Positions 690-25,500 of a stretch of 64,000 nt of DNA are shown here, in pieces. Position numbers and translations under genes: made by a program. How positions within the stretch are numbered: the first letter of the stretch is position 1; each line of letters opens with the position of its first letter. The stretch is from Dysidea avara. Taxonomy: Eukaryota > Porifera > Demospongiae > Dictyoceratida > Dysideidae. Under the pieces are notes generated by a model that saw only the letters and a list, made by a program, of their open reading frames with translations, was not told where the DNA came from and did no database searches. The DNA is taken from contig NC_089276.1 in NCBI RefSeq assembly GCF_963678975.1, positions 19,528,726 through 19,592,725 on the forward strand, in the 5' to 3' direction.

Positions 690-1395
690 CTGTAGGGAAT
701 TCAGCTACAAACAAGTCACCCTGTAGTCAGATCAGCTAGAAGAAGGTACCTAATAGAGAGTTCAGCTACACAGAAACCATCATGTAGAGAGTTCAACTGC
801 AAACAAATCACCCTGTAGAGAATTCAGCTGCAAACAAATTCCCCTGTAGAGAGATCAGCTAGAAGAAGTTACCTTGTAGAGAGTTCAGCTACAAAGAAAC
901 CACCATGTAGAGAGTTCAGCTGCAAACAAACCACCCAGTAGAAAGTTCCGCTATGAACAGATCACCCTGTAGAGAGTTCAGTTAGAAACAAGTCATCCTG
1001 TAGAGAGGTCAGCTAGAAGAAGTCACCTTGTAGAGAGTTCAGCTACAAAGAAACCACCATGTAAGAGAGTTCAGCTGCAAACAAATCACCTGTAGAGAGT
1101 TCAGCTACAAACAAGTCACCCTGTAGAGAGATCAGCTAGAAACAAGTCACCCTGTAGAGAGTTCAGCTAGAAGAAGTTACAATGTAGAGAGTTCAGCTAC
1201 AAAGAAACTACCATGTAGAGAGTTCAGCTGCAAACAAATCGCCCTGTAGAGAATTCAGCTACAAACAAATCGCCCTGTAGAAAGATCAGCTAGACGAAGT
1301 TACCTTGTAGAGAGTTCAGCTACAAACAAGTCATCCAGTAGAGAGATCAGCTAGAGGGATCACCTTGTAGATAGTTCAGCTACAAAGAAATCACC
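690..1395 (+). repeat. 31-bp minisatellite of element copy A
   Basis: These are imperfect tandem units of about 31 bp built on GTAGAGAGTTCAGCTACAAA followed by a short CAAATCACCCT-like stretch. Two main variants (GTTCAGCTAC and GATCAGCTAG) alternate irregularly. It matches the arrays at 27810-30815 and 56255-58745. Confidence 0.9.
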
Positions 1396-1502
1396 CTGCT
1401 TCATCTTTTCTTCTTCCTGTGGTAAAGAAAAAATGATAGGTTAAAAGCCCTAAAGCTGGCCATAGGCCGGCTTTGGGGTATACAAATACAATAAGAAGTG
1501 AA

Positions 1503-1831
1503 ATCTAATCCAAAACAGCCAAGCTGTTAAAAAAAAGTGCGGCCCTCAGAAAGGCTATGGTGAAAAAAGATGTGAAATCCAAGGTGACGGCCAAGAAATG
1601 GCAGTGATGGTAGGTTAATGGTAAAAATTTTAATAACGACAATTCAGATGAATTTTGTGCCAAGACCAAGCGGCACCAAATTCACCTGAATTGTTGTTAT
1701 TAAAATTTTTACCATTAACCTACCATCACAGACATTTCTTGGCCGCCACCTTGGATTTCACATCTTTTTTTGACCATAGCCTTTCTGAGGGCCACACTCT
1801 TTTTTTACAGATTGGCTGTTTTGGATTAGAT
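1503..1831. repeat. Long terminal palindrome module, copy A
   Basis: The two arms are about 155 bp each. The left arm begins ATCTAATCCAAAACAGCC and the right arm ends GGCTGTTTTGGATTAGAT. They meet at a short loop containing AAGACCAAGC. The arms are imperfect (for example GACAATTCAGATG opposite CACCTGAATTGTTG). Copies are at 32473-32796 and 55750-56077. Confidence 0.88.
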
Positions 1832-1989
1832 GTCAACATTTCCCTGAAAAGTGAAGATTTACAGTTTCTACTTATTATTTACCCATCAAGCATACATAAA
1901 ATAGGAACTGAGGCATAAATGTTGAGCATAATTTTGAAAATAATAGGCAAATGTTTCGAGTACTGCTCTAAAGCATAATACCTGTAGGT

Positions 1990-2760
1990 ACAAAAAAAAA
2001 ACATAATAAGTGGGTCCCTATTTCTCAAGTATTGCAAGAGCACAGGAAGTGGGGTACCATCATCCAATGTGAGCCCACCTATACATTTTGTCCAATCCTT
2101 GTAAAGACATAAGCTGGCTATTCGAATGATTGTTAACAAGAGACGAACCAGAAAAACAACACTGTATTGGACATAGAACACTGCCACTTGATGGCCAAGC
2201 ATGCAGAGAGTGTGTTAACAAAATGGAAAGCCTCATGAAGTATCATACCATCCACCAACATAACCACTAGCGTAAACAACCCCTGGCAATCTTTCACAGC
2301 CTCCTGTACAACTTCTGCTCTCCAAAGCCCCAGACACTAGGACTGAATCAGAAGAATAGCAACAATAAGATGGGGTGGGGTGTTATTATCAATGACATGA
2401 CTGCCAAATGCTAACTCCACTGAGTCCACCCTGATTCCTGGATCAGTAGAATCAGTTTTCTAATAACTGACTCACACAAAATGTGCACCCATGCTTCAGC
2501 AACCAAGTCACCAATGCAGTCCCATATCTCATTGTGATGTCTTACCATTAGCTCTCCCTTCTACAAACCAGGCCATTGTGCAAAGAAATGTGTTCCCACA
2601 ACCATCACATCTGAAAGACAGCCTATCCCCCAAAAACTCCATTTGAGCAAGGTCAAAATTGCATTGCTCCAATGGAACCAATGGTAAGTAATCCTCTGAA
2701 TAACTCACTGGCGAGAAGGAGGCAAATGCTATTCATGGTGCAGTCATAACATTTCACTTC
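1990..2760 (-). pseudogene. Decayed copy of a retroelement zinc-knuckle plus nuclease-like domain
   Basis: In the minus-strand frames I can read FRCDGCGNTF, then HHNEIWDCIGDLVAEAW, and further on SLCLYKDWTKCIGG with TLDDGTPLP. These line up in order with the better copy at 11821-12441 (CNGCSATFSVEHALDC, HNEVHDTIGDL, LRATMLCVRGSR). Frameshifts and stops separate the pieces, so it is not functional. The C-x2-C-x7-H-x3-C pattern followed by a conserved nuclease-like block resembles the C-terminal region of retroelements that use a restriction-like endonuclease. That family assignment is an inference. Confidence 0.5.
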
Positions 2761-3774
2761 TCTCCTGGATTAAAAAGCTGAGTGCAACTGGTCACCATGG
2801 CAGGGTGGGGAGAATGAGCCCACTCCTTTAATAACATCCACTATCACACTCACAGCCTGTCTGATGGATGCAAACATGCCAGCAGGGATCATAAATTCCA
2901 AGACCACTACATCAAATAGGGAGAAAGAACAGTGAGCACCATCAAACAAGGTGAAAAGAATCTCTCCACAATAGCACTTTGGAGCGAACAAAACACAACA
3001 CCACAGTTGTGTGTTAAATGCACTTACATTGAAGGGATTTGGTAAAACAAATCATGACTCGTCTCAACCAATCACCCCACCCAGAAAGGCATGGCCAATT
3101 GTAAAGAAACACCTAAACCAGCAAACTCCTCATCTACTACAGCAATGCCACCACTTGGATAGTTCTGGGAAATTACCATGCTTTGGACCAAGTACAACAA
3201 ACAATGTACTAGGAATGAACATTGGGCAAGGGTCTCACACGTGCTGAGTCATCGACTTAACCAATTCTGGACATAAATCACCATCATCCTTTGGAGTCTG
3301 AGGGACCATATAGCCATAGGATAGAAAAAGCATTGAAAGATCATCATGAGTGATCCACTCTATCAACAGTCATGCAGAAAAAGCAGTTGAATGTATTGCT
3401 CTGGTCTTTTGCTTAGCCAAGTTTCGATATTCATGCCCTTTTTGGTAATATGCTAGTTGCCTCAGATGTCCTGGGGTGCACCTTATTATACTTGGCGAGT
3501 GATAATAGTTCAATATTTTGATAACTGATGGTATTGGCAACAGGCCTATATATACATGTTGTTAATAAGGAAATGACTACAACAGAACCACAGCACATAG
3601 GCATTCCAGCTCTATTCACACCATATTAAAGGCATTATGAGCATTAACAAGCAGAACACTCCTTCATGATCATCATAGAGATCAATCAAAGTGCCCTTTG
3701 TACCAGACTTCATTCCAGACACCAACTGATCACTGCTTGCAACACTCAGAATAGTAGTGTGGCATAGTGCAATA
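2761..3774. other. Unassigned interval, possibly 5' part of the decayed retroelement
   Basis: I see no exon, RNA gene or clear repeat boundary here. Minus-strand open stretches (for example 2770-2991) may belong to the same decayed retroelement as 1990-2760, but I could not match them to a domain. Confidence 0.3.
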
Positions 3775-16500: not shown

Positions 16501-19500
16501 AAATTTCACACGTATTTGGCAAAATTGCTATTTTTGTCTTATTTTTATGAAACAATAGCATCACGGTCAGTAAAATTAATCAGCTAAAATAATCTGCTAT
16601 AATAACTGAAATTTGGTATACCGATTTCCAATTATTTACCAATTAATTGGTGCATCCCTATTTTTAGCCCTTTGGCCTGCGACCCTCATGCCTCATGTGT
16701 ATCAGCTAAATCCCTCACAGCTGTGGTATAACTTTACATGTGTACATACATTCAACAGTCAAACTAATCTGCTGTTCTGCAATTGATTCAGGATGATTAT
16801 AAGCTCGACATGTGTACACTCCATCATCAGAAATACTAACAGGATCAATCAACAACTCTGACATATCCGTTGCAGCATCTGATTTAAGCTGGATTCCTTT
16901 GTCATTATACCAGCTAATGTTGACTGGATAAGTAGAATCAACATCATTGCTAACCGTACATGTGAAATAAGCCTTGTCTCCTTCCTTAACTGTTGTTGCA
17001 TCGCTAACGTCGGTAATGATTGGTGGACCTTAAAGTTGATGAATGTATATACACTCACATGAATAATTACATTTAGTATTAGAATATGACAATTCAAACA
17101 CTGTGAACACTAATACTGTATTTGCTATTTACTTGTCAATTAAAATATTCATCATACATTATAATAGTGTTATTAGTAGGAGATCCCCAAACTGATGCAC
17201 CCACCTTACAAATTCCACCCATAAAAATCATTAGAGGAACATCTTATGCAACGAAAAGCACCTTCACAGAAGAGTGTTAGTGTTACTAATGCCAAATATT
17301 ATACCCTTTACAGAAGAATAAATACTAAATTTTAAAAAGACTGCCTAAACCTGATCTTTAGTTTGCCTACCTGCAGTTACAAGCTAGAGGTTGAATATTG
17401 CATTGTATGATTACTGTATTATGCTGCAACAACAAACTCAGCACTGTGTCACTTCTTTTAACACTTCCTTGCTGAAAAGCACACCACAGGTATATTCCAC
17501 TTGCAAACAATAATAATACTGACATGTCAGACACTTCAATAATACAGACAAATATTTGTGCAAAAGCAATTAATTCGGATGCAAATGCATCGAATTCTAT
17601 TGCCAAGACTAACTTTAGTGCAAGTGTGACAAATTTTAAAGCAAAAGCAACAAATTGTATTACAAAGACGACAAACTCTATTGCTAACAGAACATGGCCA
17701 ATTGCGAAGGTGACCAATTCAATAGCAAAAACCTGTAAACTAGATGCCTGGATGAAAAGAGTATAGCACAATGTCAATTTTCTCACCATACACAGTAATT
17801 GTAGCATTATCAGATATCACACTACCATCATCATTAGTAGCAACACAACGATAGACACCTTCATCTTCTTCTGTGATCACACTAAATATCAGTTTAGGTG
17901 ATGTGATATTCATAGCTCTGTGGGAAGGTCTAATCCAACTATTACTAGATGACTGGTATTTCTCCCATTTGATGGTAACATATCCATTAGCTTCACAATT
18001 CATCACTTCCTTTTCTTTATCATTTCTCCTGCATACGTTAGGTTTTGGATGTTCTTTGAAATGTGGAATAGCTACGGGTACAATTTAAACACAATATAGA
18101 CATCATACTTGTGCAGAGTATGTAACAATGTTGTGATATTTCTAATTGGCAAAGTCCTTGGTTTTCAGCTGTTGACAATCAATGTTCATTGTAGAAATGA
18201 TACAGGGAATTTTAAGGATCATCAAGTAAACAGTTATGAAACAAAGGAGGTTGCTTACGCACATCTGCATACAGGCTGTAAGTACAAATTAACACTTCCT
18301 ATACTTCACATAGCTAGCTTATTAGCATTAGTAATGAATGAAGTGGACTATACAATACTGTAGGCGGGGAAAGTTACACATGGGAAAAGTTAGGCAAAAT
18401 TTGCAAACGTAGCCATCATCGTGAAACTTTTACACCAGTTAGCATAGTACTTTTTGTAGCAAAAAAAATTTTTTTGAGTGGCTAAACTCATGCAAGACCT
18501 GTCACCTCGTGTCAATCGTGTGTCGAAATGGCATTGTTTAAGTATTTTAAACTTTAGGCAAAAGGGGAAAAGGGCATCCATCTGCCAGCAGAAAACGGCC
18601 CTCTTTCTCAGGTGCTACCACTGATCATTTTAAAACATGGCAATGAAGCAGTAATGAAGACTTCAAGGAAAGCGCAATGCATAGTGGACAATACGAAGAA
18701 GGCAAGTATGCTTTGTATCATAGCAATTTGGCAGCTGTTCAACATTTCAGCAAAGATTTTGAGCCAGATACACTCAAGGAGAGCACTATAATGGGGTGGG
18801 AAAGCTAAATATCTGGATGAAATGCGCAAGAGAAAGAAACGTGGGTGCAAGGATATAGAATTAAAAATGTTACAAGCAGCAAAGATAGGAAGGCCATTAC
18901 TAATTGGGCAGAAGCATGACAAGGAAGTGCAGGAGTATTTGGTTTGCTTTATGAGAGGTTGACACAGCTGTAAATACACTTGTTGTAAGATCTGTTGGTA
19001 CAGCAGTTATGCGCAGAAGAGAGCCAGGAATGCTAGCATCTGAAGGTGGATCAATTGTGTTGACAAAAGACTGGGCATGTTATCTGTTGCAGCAGATGCA
19101 TGGGATTTGTCAAACGGAAGGCTACAACCAAGGAAAAAAGTACTGTGGAAGACTTTGATGTAGTAAAGAATGATTTTTTTTGTTTGAAATCAAGGTTGTG
19201 GTAGCTTTGGAAGAAATCCCACCTGAATTATTAATAAACTTTGACCAGATTGGACTGAAGTGTGTTCCAGTTGGTGACTGGACTATGGCAAAGCAGGGAT
19301 CCAAAAGTGTTCCCGTATCCGGTTTGGGAGATAAACGCCTATAACTGCAGTTTTTGCTGGCACACCATCTGGAATGTTCCTGCCACCGCAGCTGATATCT
19401 GAAGGGAAAACGAAAGCTTGTCTGCCCAAAGTCAAATTCCCACAAGTTGGGATATTACATGTACTCCAAATCACTGGGCAAATGAAGAGTCAATGAAAAG

Positions 19501-22500
19501 GTACATTTTAAAAATCATTGTGCCAAATGTGGAGAAAAACAAGAAAGATAAGAAGTTGCCCAGTAGCCAGCGAACACTATGCCTTATGGATAATTTCTCT
19601 GCACAGTGCACTGATGGGATTGTTGCACTATTTGAGTCTGATAGGATTGGTACTGTGTATGTCCCTGCTAACTGTACAGGGAAACTTCAATCAATGGACA
19701 TTAGTGTAAACAAGTCGGTGAAGACATTTTTGAAGGACGACTTTCAAAATAATATTGGTATGTCAAGGAGATGCTCACACAAATTGACGATACTAGCACT
19801 AAACATAGTGACATAAGGTCTAACTAAGCCAATCACATTTCCAATGGGAAGAATGAAGCATATTTCAGCTGAGTGGATAGTGGATGCTGTTCATTATATC
19901 TATACCCATCCAGTATTGATTCGTAATGGTTTCCGTGCTGCTGGAATCACTGCTGCCATAAGTGAACTTTCGTGACAGTATATACTACGTAGGTGACTTA
20001 GTGTACTGTATAATGATTTTTTTTTGCAATTACTGATTATATACAAATTCATAATTTTATTATTAATGATAAATTAATTCATTGTACTAATAGCTACAAT
20101 CAACAGCATTACTGAATCACAATAATAGATGTAAGTCACTGCTTTGAAAAAGAGTCATGATAAGCTTATCAAAGCAATCAAATAAACGCTTGCGTATGCT
20201 CTCTTGCTTGTAGAATACATCACAAGGGTCTTCTCCATGTACAATTGAAGTGACAAAGGCAATGGCAAATATCCCACAGTCCTTTATACCAGCTTGCACT
20301 TGTAGATATTTCACACTCATCTCCACCAAACATGTTCTTGATCAAAGAACAAGTAGTTGCACCAATATCAGGAAACAGGGAGTCATACACAATTACTGAA
20401 TTGCTGTTACAGCCAATGATGGCGACAGCAATCCAGTGATGCCTATTTAAGCAGTGAATTATTTGAACAGAACCGTCATGAATATTATAACACTTTTCTT
20501 GCATAAGTGTTGAGTATAATCCACCAATAAAAGGGAATTGTTCTTTTATCAGCTTCTGAGCAAACTGTATATGCTTGTCTGAAGCCTCATCTCCACACTG
20601 CAAAATTGAAGGGGTCAGTGCAAAAAGAGGATAACCCACATTTGAAAAACAAAATGGTCGTGTGGTGGGCCTTAATTAGAAATTTTAGACATTTCTGAAT
20701 TGCCATAGACTAATACAAATTTTAATTTGGTTATGACTTGAACTTTTACGTCCCATTGTTAAATTTCATGGAAACATTATTAACATGCCTAACAAAGCAA
20801 TTTTGGCAAATCAACATTCATTTAATGGCAAATCAACATTAACATTCATTATTAACATTCATAAAATGGCAAATCTCTAAACGTGGGTTACTCCCTTTTA
20901 CCACCGCTGACCCCTTCAATTATTCTATCATTCAAATTCAGTCTTCTGTGGTCGTATCGAACCCAGATCTCAGTGTCTCCATCAGCATGAAGATTGAGAG
21001 TAGTTTGCACTGACACCAAACTGCTACTACTACTGGTACTTGACCCTAGATCTGCAGAAACTTTACAAGATGGTTCTGAAGTATGTAATGGGGCTTTTGC
21101 ATGGTCCCTTTCTCTTAAATTTTCTACTAACAGTTTTAAAAAAATCTTTTGTAAGCTCTTACTATCATCGCTAGTGAATTTGAGCTGACACGGGATCTCC
21201 ATGCCTCCTTGTGGTAAATCATATGAGTATCTTCTAGTACCTGTAACTACACATGATACGGCACCATCTCTCCTTAAAAACACGTAGTACAAGGTAGAAA
21301 TCCTCCTAGGCATGTGCCTAACAATGCGGCTTGATTAGTACACAACAACAGCATATCTATCATATCCTCTCGAAAGCAAGGTAAAACTTCTCCAAAAAGG
21401 AATCCAAAATGTTTTGATAGAAATGGTATCCCCTAACACAACTATCTACGCGGTACTCGGCATCCATGACTAAAACGCACATGACTAACAATCAATAAAA
21501 GAGGTGCCTATTCAAGGTCGACTACGAGTGGAGGTAACGCGAAACTTTTCTGCCGCAATCAACAGATAATTGTTGGAATCGCAAAACTTTTCCGCCAGTA
21601 TGCAAAGTAGGATGCCATTCGCGAAACTTTTCCCACACATAACTTTCCCTGCCTACGGTATGTCTACTAGCATATCTGCAGGTATAAGCAAATTCCCAAA
21701 TTTCATAACTTTCTATTTCTATGATCCTTTATTAATCCTTTATTTTTTGTATAAATACGTATTTTTGCTCACATGTTTGTAACATAGTTATTGACTGGTA
21801 AACCCACACATACAACATTAAATAAAGAAAGAATTGCATCACACATATCATAAGATTAGTTTTGCATCTGAATGCGTGCCTAACCATCAATTACAGTGGC
21901 CATTACACTCCGTTATCAGTACTATGTCCAGCCCTTTACACAGCCTTACAAATAAAGAAAAAGCCTGTGCAATACTCAAACTATAGTCAAAATAATATAC
22001 CAGTTGGTTCTACAACTAGTAGATTATATGAGCACTTACTAATAGTCTGATCACCAAAAATTGAATTGGTACAGCACTGGAGATGAATGCTCTGAGCAAG
22101 ACGACCAGAAGTACAATATAACACTTAAAGCACTGCCTATGCTTGTGTATATGAAAAATACAGCACTTAGGGGTGTCTCAAGGCTAATAGAGCACTCAGC
22201 TTTACCTTGTGCTTTATTAGCCTCTCTACACACCCCACCGTGCTGTATTTTCTGCACTCACATGTAATGGTGCTTAACTATAACGTAATATGTACATGTA
22301 GCTATACTTTTCAAAAGTATCCTACAGAGCATTACCAGACTACAGTACTTGCTAGAGCATGTGTTTTTATGTGCTTCACACACTGATAGGAGAACCTTTT
22401 CAACCACCCTGTAAGTGTTTTGATCAAATAATTGACCATCATTCATAACTGTAGCACTCAAATTTTTATTCAGCAAAATAGTGCAGTAGTATTGTATAGC

Positions 22501-25500
22501 AACGTTGAAACGGGTCACTACTGCTGACCCGGATGACCCACTGACCCGGATTTGACCCGGATTAATTAAAGCCGAGGCGTGCGATAAGAGCTATGTTTCG
22601 ACTAGTCTCGAGCGAGTGAGACTACGTTTTGAGCGTTTGATTCGTGTTGAGTAAATATTGCAACTTCAGCCTAGCTGTAGGTTGAAGACCAAAAAAAAAA
22701 AGGTCATCACCTACTGACAATAGCTACCCCTCACCATAGATACCCTCAGTTTCGTGCTACATATTGCACTTACTAATAAATGGGCGTAGCTGAGCATATG
22801 TTGGTGACATGATAAGTGGGTGTGGCTCACGAAAGAGCTATGCGATAGTGTTTATAAGTTTCCACGTCGTCAAACAAACAATTTAGTTTCTCACGTGATC
22901 CAATCCGGGTCAGACCCGGATAATTTGTAAACCGGGTCGGACCTGGATGACCCGGAGAAAATGTGACCCGGTTGACCCGACCCGGTTTCAATGCTGTTGT
23001 ATAGTAGGGATTATGAATCTGTGGGTTTTCCTGCCTAAATTTATCACCAGCCTCATTTTTCCTTCATGAGTATTGGCTACTAATCCAAACATACTTTCAG
23101 AGCAACCCCAAACACTTCATCAGAAAATCACAGTACTGTACTTCAAAAGGGTGTACAGGGTTAAAGTCTTAAATTAATTAGGGTACAGGCATTTCAAAGG
23201 AGAGGCAAGCAGTTTCCAGGACAAGGGAAATTGGCTTCCCTCCCATAAAATAGAATGCCATTTGATATAAATTTATTTAGAATTACTCACTATTCACTTC
23301 CAACCAGGCACAATTAGTAACACTTCCACATTCATTGCTAACTCTGCAACAGTACGATCCTTCAACAGATAATTCAGCATCAAACACTGTCAAGCTTCTC
23401 ACTGCTGTCAATTGACCATGCCTTTGAGGAAACAACCATGTTGTAGATGATGTCTTTGACTTCTTGGGAAGTCTTTTTCCATCCTCTCTATTCCAGTCAT
23501 AAATCAATACACCATGACTTAGGGCTAAGCATGTAAATTTAGCAGTTTTTCCTAGTAGGACTGTAATATTATCTGGTGGTCTGATCATCTCTGGACATGG
23601 GACTAGTACATACAAAACATACTGTATTATAGACATTATCACTTTGCACATGCACTATATCTATATGCATAGACATAGTACAGGCTACATATGTGACTAA
23701 ATTTGCTGATCTACACACATACATATGTATGTACAGTATGACTCTATTCATCCAGAATTTAGTCACACACACACCGGCATACATGGATGCATATCACACT
23801 CACACACACACGCACACACATACACACACACTCTATATGCACACACCACGGCACCACGCACACACGCACACACAAGCAACGCAAAGCCTTCAGCTTCCAT
23901 ACTAGCATGGTCACACCTACCCAGCGAACCAGCACTGGGAATTGTGTGCTACTCAGGTGCTATGAGTCAGCACAGGCAAATCCCCTGGGGCATGACTAGT
24001 AACCCATCGGAGGCTGTGCCATGTTCAGGTGAGACTTTGGGAGTCCACACACACACACACACGCACACGCATACGCACACGCACACGCACACGCACACAC
24101 AATCTGTACATACTGTACCTTGAACATGCAACTTCACAGTCTTAGATTTGACTCGCCCTGCACTGTTTTCTGCAATACAGTAATACTCTCCAGCATAATA
24201 CCCATTTGCTCTTTTTATGTATAAGATACTATTAACTTTATCCTGTGATGTTGAGTTGACTTGTGTAGCTGTAATAGGCATTCTCAAACCCAATCTTTTC
24301 CAAATTAGTGCAACGATGCCATAGCCAACAGCCTCACATGAGAATCTAACATTATTAAAAACATCTACTTCCATGTCATTAGGATGGGATGAAAAAACTG
24401 GTAGAGACACTAAAAACAATAGCATTAATACACTGCATAATGACTTCTAATAATACATAGTACAAAAATTTAATCTAGGTCAGTAACAAAGTGTGTGCTA
24501 GCAATTGTTACATTTATATAAATGTGTATTCTGATTTTATGTATTTATGCACTGACCTTTAATTTCTAACGTAGAGAAATCAGAAGCGATTTTTCCAGTA
24601 GAATTACTAAAAGTACATCGATAATCACCAGAATCTTCTAGCTTCACATTAGTAAGAGTTATGTGAGATGATAGGTCATTTCTTGCCCATATAAGAAAAT
24701 TACCATTGCGTTTCTCCCATACGTAATTGAGATCTGGCCTGTCAGGCATACACTTCATTGACACATTGAAATTGCTCCTGTTGAGGTGTACAACTGGATC
24801 AGATATTAATACTGTTGGACGATCTGGGGTGTCTGGGTATATACAGTACACACATAGCTATTACAAACATGGCTTGACTATGTACAAGTAAATTCAGTAT
24901 TTATACTTGAATAGTATGTATTATTGTAAGGGACTACATACAGCATGTAACCTAGTCTGTTATCTAAACATCACGTATTATACTGTATTATGCAGATCGA
25001 GCAATATATGTGTACATGGATACAGTAGATACAGTACAATGTACTGTGCATACCTGCTAATGTAAGTTTTGCTTGATTTGATATTGCTCCTATTTGGTTT
25101 GCCCAAGCAACACAATGATAAGTTCCAACATCATCTTCAGTCACATTGGGGATAGTGAGTGTACTGGTGGTCAGTTCTGGTGAAGACAATCGTACAGGAC
25201 GTGGTAAATTATCTTTTCCTTCCCATTCAATTGATATTTTGCCATATGCTTGAACAGAACATGTAAACACACCACTAAATGGAGCAGCAGCACTTGTATC
25301 AGTAGGATGAGTGATGATATGAGGAGCAGGAACTAAGTACATGAAGAGAAGACATACAATATTTCTAGTATGTTATAACACTTGTCTTTACAATCTTTGT
25401 GGATTTCATATGCATGTGCACACACCTTTGATCACAACATCGGCATATGTCGAAAAACTATTTCCACCAGTATTGCTAGTAGTACACTGGTATCGACCTT

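Follow-up and report, generated by a model that had tools for sequence, protein, structure and literature searches.

A TA-flanked element with two convergent genes in Dysidea avara

The window analysed here is a 64,000-nucleotide stretch of the genome of the sponge Dysidea avara (NC_089276.1, positions 19,528,726 to 19,592,725 of the forward strand), and it contains a transposable element at positions 18358-21658. The element carries two genes that face each other tail to tail: one encodes a DDE_1 transposase, and the other encodes a protein in which a HIRAN domain is joined to a protease of the Ulp1 type (Peptidase_C48, here C48). We are close to certain that this element is a decayed copy from a large and recently active pogo-like (IS630-Tc1-mariner) clade, whose members span ~2.9-3.9 kb, insert at TA, have ends of the form C[CT]GTA... 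and carry the same tail-to-tail pair, with a transposase that is mostly DD35D and usually has a PIP-box-like N-terminus. The original prediction, made from the letters of the window, had placed a pogo-type DDE_1 transposase reading right and a C48 protease with His, Asp, Gln and Cys reading left between one pair of ends, and both genes were recovered here. The two window genes are pseudogenes with stops and frameshifts. One open piece of the transposase matches Pfam DDE_1 (E 1.5e-7), and in the protease His and Asp lie on one open piece and Gln and Cys in a different frame. No single piece of the window copy matches Pfam C48 or HIRAN; relatives with open frames match both, and it was on these relatives that Pfam and fold comparison identified the N-terminal HIRAN domain, which was not part of the original prediction.

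The outer ends of the window element form inverted arms of 44 nt that are 80% complementary (18355-18398 and 21618-21661). The 18-mer CTGTAGGCGGGGAAAGTT, allowed up to three mismatches, matches the window only at 18358-18375 on the plus strand and at 21641-21658 on the minus strand (two mismatches), with 0.03 matches expected. Subterminal repeats of the GCGAAACTTTTC type start at 18419, 21537, 21579 and 21619, and a search with GCGAAACTTTTCC at up to two mismatches returned five matches compared with 0.93 expected. The predicted arrangement of inverted ends with TA outside and repeats just inside is therefore borne out. To place the boundaries exactly we relied on 21 full-length family loci, picked by long open frames or high scores, in a scan that imposed TA beforehand and did not impose CCGTA. 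All 21 have TA-bounded ends that read CCGTA or a near variant (CTGTA, TCGTA, CCATA); such ends were not always the best-scoring pair, and at locus L068 they ranked third, after the ends of a surrounding repeat. The two ends agree with each other at 22-30 of 30 bases in these loci, in keeping with the short terminal inverted repeats of pogo elements. The BLAST match between two near-identical copies, L040 and L041, stops at the same TAs as the scanned ends. Because of these relatives we set the ends at 18358 and 21658, five bases further out on each side than the 18363..21653 first proposed.

The transposase is pogo-like

Among clade transposases, DDE_1 was detected by Pfam in 18/18. The catalytic spacing is DD35D in 15/16 non-redundant transposases and DD32D in the remaining one, all within the DD29-56D range of pogo. 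A helix-turn-helix of the Tc5 type (HTH_Tnp_Tc5) reached E<=0.01 in 7/18 (best 1.4e-4), and neither CENP-B_N nor HTH_psq was listed in the 18 scanned proteins. A structural model of the transposase (mean predicted local distance difference test score, pLDDT, of 74.6) compared best with Mos1, followed by Metnase/SETMAR and Sleeping Beauty, at low template modelling scores and with weak alignment.

Within the first 60 residues of stop-to-stop frames, 11/13 complete frames have a PIP-box-like motif, compared with a mean of 0.93 and a maximum of 4 in shuffles; the frames are related and do not represent 13 independent cases. In a second full copy of the window element, L009, the motif lies further in, and L068 is without it. 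At L073 the N-terminus QLNLFKFF fits the published consensus Qxx[ILM]xxF[FY] (PMC5371812; statements taken from cited papers refer throughout to the portions of them that were available).

The second gene encodes a HIRAN-Ulp1 protein

Open frames of the second gene run to ~310-460 codons. Of 19 members, 18 match Peptidase_C48 in the C-terminal half (best 1.8e-8) and 17 match HIRAN in the N-terminal half (best 1.3e-7), in both cases at E<=0.01; no helicase or RING domain was listed by Pfam in the 19 scanned proteins. An AlphaFold2 model (mean pLDDT 77) was compared with known structures by Foldseek, and its predicted fold resembles most closely yeast Ulp1 (1euv, E 2.6e-6), followed by SENP proteases. 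HLTF HIRAN structures (4s0n, 6kcs, 4xzg) were also among the matches, including HIRAN-DNA structures such as 4s0n and 6kcs.

Conservation of the two active regions was counted over 75 loci, decayed copies included. The protease residues are retained at high frequency (H 73/74, D 72/73, Q 63/72, C 69/73), and 60/72 loci have the complete set. In the open-frame set the invariant Cys is biased because a DCG motif was required when proteases were picked, and the 75-locus count is free of this bias. Within the HIRAN motif E-x-x-N-x-H-D, the residues E (62/66), N (64/67) and D (62/67) are likewise kept. With the C48 domain, the H-D-Q-C active site and an Ulp1-like predicted fold together, the C-terminal half is a predicted protease of family C48, and domain sequence and predicted fold both point to HIRAN in the N-terminal half.

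The two genes are paired across the genome

We searched the 550.8 Mb assembly (108 contigs) for each component. For the transposase we scored the best 89 of 1360 first-look candidates, after 5 weak N-terminal rows belonging to already listed elements were dropped from 94 rows. Two protease searches scored the best 150 of 629 and then the best 113 of 1587 first-look candidates, and a HIRAN search scored the best 150 of 270. The second protease list added 24/140 rows, its remaining places all being in the first protease list except for one in the HIRAN list.

We found the second gene tail to tail with 89/89 of the scored transposases. A listed protease lies 225-1186 bp from 54 of the 89, and all 54 pairs are convergent, compared with 0.29 pairs under random placement (maximum 3 in 1000 trials, with contig size approximated by the largest hit coordinate). 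The remaining 35 are convergent as well, as judged from fetched 3' flanks (16/16 and 9/9) or from the HIRAN and second protease lists (10). In the reverse direction, a transposase was present at 30/30 of the best protease loci, which include the window copy and the L009 site; 28 lay within the fetched 1.5 kb, and at L022 and L037 the transposase is 1.4 and 2.8 kb from the protease.

As a control, only 6/150 of the best Pfam DDE_1 hits, none of them overlapping the 89, have a HIRAN or C48 hit at a distance of up to 4 kb, compared with 72/89 clade members to which the same hit lists assign a partner (60 via the protease lists and a further 12 via the HIRAN list). The clade itself enters the control, because its two convergent cases are clade relatives of the type found at L088 (one of them read, the other judged by its neighbouring hit). 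Based on these counts, it is the pogo-like clade that the second gene accompanies, and DDE_1 transposases at large do not generally have it nearby. A general association with all DDE_1 transposases of this genome was rejected as a rule, and its exceptions led to the HIRAN-only genes described below. Since best-scoring candidates alone were scored, copies with a single gene could be missed.

Copies with both genes moved recently

When the first 346 bases of the window element were used as a DNA query, one other long match came up (73%, C1:46782192). It marks a complete element, L009, in which both genes and the two ends are all present and which is 79.6% and 77.7% identical to the window copy across two aligned parts; there the transposase retains an open frame of 537 codons, and the protease is broken. 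In younger copies both frames are open. L040 and L041 share 99.94% identity over 3084 bp within unrelated flanks, and in each of them the transposase (498 codons) and the protease (394 codons) have open frames; L042 and L043 share 99.5% identity over 3005 bp, with frames of 491 and 369 codons. These near-identical pairs lead us to conclude that the transposase and protease genes moved together recently, and copies with both genes between the same ends, which the original prediction had led one to look for, do exist.

Empty sites with a single TA, another expectation of the original prediction, were found for one family member. L068 is inserted in a multicopy palindromic repeat of ~272 bp (826 first-look candidates, best 40 scored; for example C4:43991827-43992099). 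When the L068 flanks were fused at a single TA, the resulting 272 bases matched the 40 scored places over nearly their full length at 92-99%, and the junction was gap-free in 3/3 fetched places. These empty sites show that L068 inserted at TA with duplication of the TA. The ends of the window element also occur without the protease: at 29 of 38 further end-matching places an inverted second end follows within a span of 191-226 bp (for example C1:45785938-45786158), too short for either gene, and we classify these as non-autonomous derivatives. At the best-scoring places examined, no separate element carrying the protease between ends of its own was found, and the outcome named beforehand as counting against the original prediction did not arise there.

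Given the second full copy, the recent open two-gene copies, the 89/89 and 30/30 pairing and the single-TA empty sites, there is strong support for assigning both genes to a single pogo-like transposon flanked by TA. The original prediction had favored cargo over chance. Chance is indeed excluded by the pairing counts, and the word cargo understates the case, because the second gene is a standard part of the clade and bears signs of purifying selection.

Co-descent and selection

Pairwise distances of transposase and protease across 16 non-redundant loci correlate with r 0.85, and the best of 5000 permutations reached 0.63. The two gene trees share 9/13 splits, compared with a mean of 0.26 and a maximum of 3 in shuffles. 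Between L030 and L070 the ratio of nonsynonymous to synonymous substitution rates (dN/dS) comes to 0.11 in the transposase and 0.14 in the protease, in what amounts to one independent comparison, L026 and L030 being near-copies. Protease dN/dS is 0.36-0.71 in pairs with dS <0.1, which we read as copies released from constraint after insertion. Both genes show signs of purifying selection, as far as these sequence comparisons indicate.

HIRAN-only genes in related elements

L088 (positions 1071-2782 of the locus; C11:14970570-14972281) has an in-clade transposase, ~42-49% identical over 263-276 amino acids to the best matches listed. Its second gene is an open frame of 117 codons that encodes HIRAN and in which C48 was undetected (best E 0.20), so that the pairing of transposase and protease is not absolute. 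A pair similar to that of L088 was seen at C11:14796780.

L087 (positions 1243-3324; C2:6701242-6703323) combines a Tigger-like transposase (CENP-B_N/HTH_Tnp_Tc5/DDE_1) with a divergently oriented HIRAN-only frame of 144 codons (Pfam HIRAN 2.2e-8). No C48 part was found in it at E<=0.01, the best value being 0.021 inside the HIRAN stretch. The HIRAN-only genes of L087 and L088, together with divergent spacing like that of L087 (763 bp) at C8:18180903 and C1:57810366 (775 and 806 bp), suggest that HIRAN, to a greater degree than Ulp1, may be the common accessory.

Two further observations concern these genes. The L087 transposase ends in QTDLLQYFKQ, a PIP-box-like C-terminus. HIRAN also occurs in five open frames of 212 codons (C2:9427592, C3:14858210, C6:8079439, C2:17438939 and C2:20013209), four with equal scores and the fifth nearly so; they are without a listed C48 or DDE_1 neighbour and could belong to another HIRAN-bearing mobile element.

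Relation to described transposons

Mutator-like elements, which are not known to have a HIRAN domain, were rejected as a home for the clade, since 18/18 transposases carry DDE_1 and no Mutator-type domain was listed. Some of them resemble the clade in carrying Ulp1, with a different transposase (PMC2836005). The transposase side agrees instead with the pogo superfamily (Tigger, Passer, Fot, Lemi), which shares the TA duplication, short terminal inverted repeats, DDE_1, DD35D and a size within 1.2-5.2 kb (PMC7386202), and the PIP-box of pogo, Tigger and Lemi1 (PMC5371812) has a counterpart in the PIP-box-like motif of this clade. Unlike the superfamily, the clade has a convergent HIRAN-Ulp1 second gene, and its Tc5-type helix-turn-helix is weakly detected. 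The same review describes pogo elements as having one or two open reading frames encoding transposases (PMC7386202), and the main texts of this review and of a pogo-like survey (PMC7325037) contain no word starting with "protease".

An animal parallel for the protease is Ginger1, a DNA transposon that encodes an Ulp1 or OTU protease, whose describers proposed that such domains may activate repair factors and act in post-transposition repair (PMC2836005). In Ginger1 a transposase resembling the Gypsy integrase bears the protease at its C-terminus (PMC2836005), whereas here the protease is HIRAN-fused and encoded by a separate convergent gene on the opposite strand; with a DDE_1 transposase as well, membership in Ginger1 was rejected. 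Some CryptonS elements encode an additional C48-domain protein, and oomycete CryptonF elements have C48 besides the recombinase (PMC3212892). Cryptons differ in using a tyrosine recombinase instead of a DDE enzyme and in their oomycete and diatom hosts, and the available part of their description mentions no HIRAN (PMC3212892). Membership was rejected because no tyrosine recombinase domain appeared in the Pfam scans. For the N-terminal half, the predicted fold matches that of HLTF HIRAN bound to DNA (PMC4666394, PMC11237066), here joined to a C48 protease, with no helicase or RING domain listed by Pfam.

A search of the open-licence literature, which does not cover Repbase and was partly judged by title and the start of the abstract, revealed neither an Ulp1-bearing pogo-like element nor a transposon with HIRAN. 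Contig, viral-contig and phage collections returned no relatives; judging by their descriptions, these sets hold no animal genomes and are uninformative on other sponges or cnidarians. Ulp1 in transposons is thus already known from Ginger1, Mutator-like elements and Cryptons, and a HIRAN-Ulp1 second gene in pogo-like elements, as identified from sequence, appears to be new.

Possible role of the second protein

As a whole, the explanation that best accounts for these results is a two-gene pogo-like transposon with an end-guided protease, and we give it somewhat better than an even chance. The mechanism we have in mind is argued by analogy and is a real possibility, though short of even: HIRAN may hold the C48 protease at free 3' ends during transposition. 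The transposase would cut and paste the element at TA, and the second protein would work in trans. HIRAN would bind the free single-stranded 3' ends produced by excision, strand transfer or fork-associated repair and keep the protease there, the transposase, or else repair or clamp proteins, could be relieved of SUMO (or a ubiquitin-like protein) by the protease, and the post-cleavage complex might then be resolved or repaired in favor of the element. A more detailed version, which we advance tentatively and consider doubtful, makes the accessory protein a DNA-end-guided deSUMOylase. HIRAN would capture 3' ends exposed by the transposase or the fork, and Ulp1 would desumoylate the transposase or PCNA held via the PIP-like motif, so that the post-cleavage complex is dismantled and repair is steered; HIRAN would possibly be the older part and Ulp1 later gained or lost.

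The HIRAN domain of HLTF reportedly binds 3' DNA ends. PCNA is SUMO-modified, and yeast Ulp1 acts on it. The pocket of HLTF HIRAN takes one single-stranded dinucleotide (PMC4666394), and the removal of Cas9 by HLTF after cutting requires HIRAN and the released 3' end (PMC11237066). The pogo transposase bound PCNA in a two-hybrid screen, and the PIP-box of pogo is conserved in Tigger and Lemi1 (PMC5371812).

Several observations weigh against an end-guided SUMO protease as a fixed and selected partner of the transposase. The catalytic part was seen in 24/25 fetched flanks, and L054 retains 45 C-terminal residues alone; at 8/89 loci (8 of the 10 cases judged from lists) only the HIRAN half was seen, and the L088 gene has HIRAN without detectable C48. 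Two transposase splits and one protease split are in supported conflict between the gene trees, the low dN/dS comes from a single comparison, and the young pairs give the higher protease values noted above. The domain matches are weak, exceeding the curated Pfam cut-off in 4/6 (C48) and 2/6 (HIRAN) singly scanned proteins, and a YopJ acetyltransferase model also matches 5/19 second proteins. As for SUMO specificity, the deubiquitinase OtDUB and the NEDD8 protease Den1 also match the predicted fold, with weaker E-values. A sequence search of the PDB with a profile returned no C48 or HIRAN structure, one with the HIRAN piece returned nothing relevant, and one with the C48 piece gave OtDUB as its best match (E 0.017, also 0.045); the clear PDB matches thus come from fold comparison and not from sequence search.

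Other roles for the protease have to be considered. In a counter-defence role, which we consider unlikely but credible, it would desumoylate host silencing or heterochromatin factors so that the element stays expressed, and HIRAN would merely bring it to chromatin or to replicating element DNA. The conserved Ulp1-type active site and purifying selection fit any trans-acting role, this one included. Moreover, Ulp1/C48 recurs in unrelated transposons (PMC2836005, PMC3212892), which suggests that many kinds of element share a target, and among the host factors of Sleeping Beauty transposition is one regulated by SUMO (PMC10138897). What counter-defence leaves unexplained is the fusion of HIRAN to the protease in most examined members and the existence of HIRAN-only relatives. 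Alternatively, the protease could desumoylate or stabilise its own transposase, with HIRAN co-localising both proteins at transposon ends. One-to-one pairing and largely congruent trees fit such a partner-specific interaction, yet congruent trees are also expected from physical linkage alone, and we regard self-regulation as quite improbable.

Explanations that deny the second gene any role fare worse. Gene capture by transposons is common, and the pairing is not absolute (L088), as would be expected if the protease were a captured host gene with no part in the life of the element. However, the protease is retained across members that are ~50% identical, its catalytic residues are mostly kept in old copies, its dN/dS is 0.14 and the trees are congruent; selection, co-descent and active-site retention largely refute a functionless passenger, and we attach very little weight to it. 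The idea that two elements nest or overlap here by chance could draw on the fact that this old copy does hold another nested element (20604-20921). The same layout recurs in L009 and at 89/89 transposases where 0.29 pairs would be expected, and we reject chance nesting as next to impossible.

The preferred reading, a pogo-like transposon with an end-guided protease, bears on a wider question. The role of Ulp1-type proteases in unrelated transposons (Mutator-like elements, Ginger1, Cryptons) is only guessed at in the papers examined (PMC2836005). Here a fused HIRAN, the best-studied relative of which binds DNA ends, signs of selection and recent open copies with a matching transposase provide a defined pair for a transposition assay in cells, and the old question of why transposons carry such proteases becomes directly testable. 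The results also suggest that a function in replication or repair (HIRAN, the PIP-like motif, perhaps SUMO) recurs as an accessory among pogo-like elements and would escape surveys that look at the transposase alone.

Features of the window copy and its surroundings

The features of the window element are collected in Table 1. The nested element splits the protease gene and is missing from the sister copy L009; it belongs to a dispersed family, with 40 genome places scored including the window, most of them covering ~200 of its bases.

Table 1. Positions of the features of the window element, numbered from the first letter of the window.
Feature	Positions	Strand	Basis
Left TA (target-site duplication)	18356..18357		sequence; same position in relatives
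Left terminal inverted repeat, start CTGTAGGCGGGGAAAGTT	18358..18398	+	inverted-arm and mismatch searches
Subterminal repeat (GTGAAACTTTTAC)	18419..18433	+	repeat search
Pogo-like DDE_1 transposase gene, degenerate (stops, frameshifts); start MALFKYFK, PIP-box-like N-terminus; 3' limit approximate	18528..19975	+	
HIRAN-Ulp1 (C48) protease gene, degenerate; HIRAN ~21485-21143, C48 ~20606-20147; limits approximate	20147..21490	-	domains/folds from relatives
Nested element, 318 bp, with perfect 15-nt inverted repeat (AATTGAAGGGGTCAG); within the protease gene, not an ancestral part of the transposon	20604..20921		
Subterminal repeat	21537..21551	+	repeat search
Subterminal repeat	21579..21593	+	repeat search
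Right terminal inverted repeat, inward CCGTAGGCAGGGAAAGTT; contains last subterminal repeat 21619-21633	21618..21658	-	inverted-arm and mismatch searches
Right TA (target-site duplication)	21659..21660		sequence

An Rfam scan of the window gave no match. Minus-strand open frames with immunoglobulin domains lie on both sides of the element, at 17740-18006, 23283-23651 and 23970-24446 (3/5 of the neighbouring frames scanned), as suits an animal genome, and the insertion site may be an intron of an immunoglobulin-domain gene. Short inverted repeats at 22155-22251 (86% over 22 nt, 77% over 26 nt) possibly mark a small mobile element.

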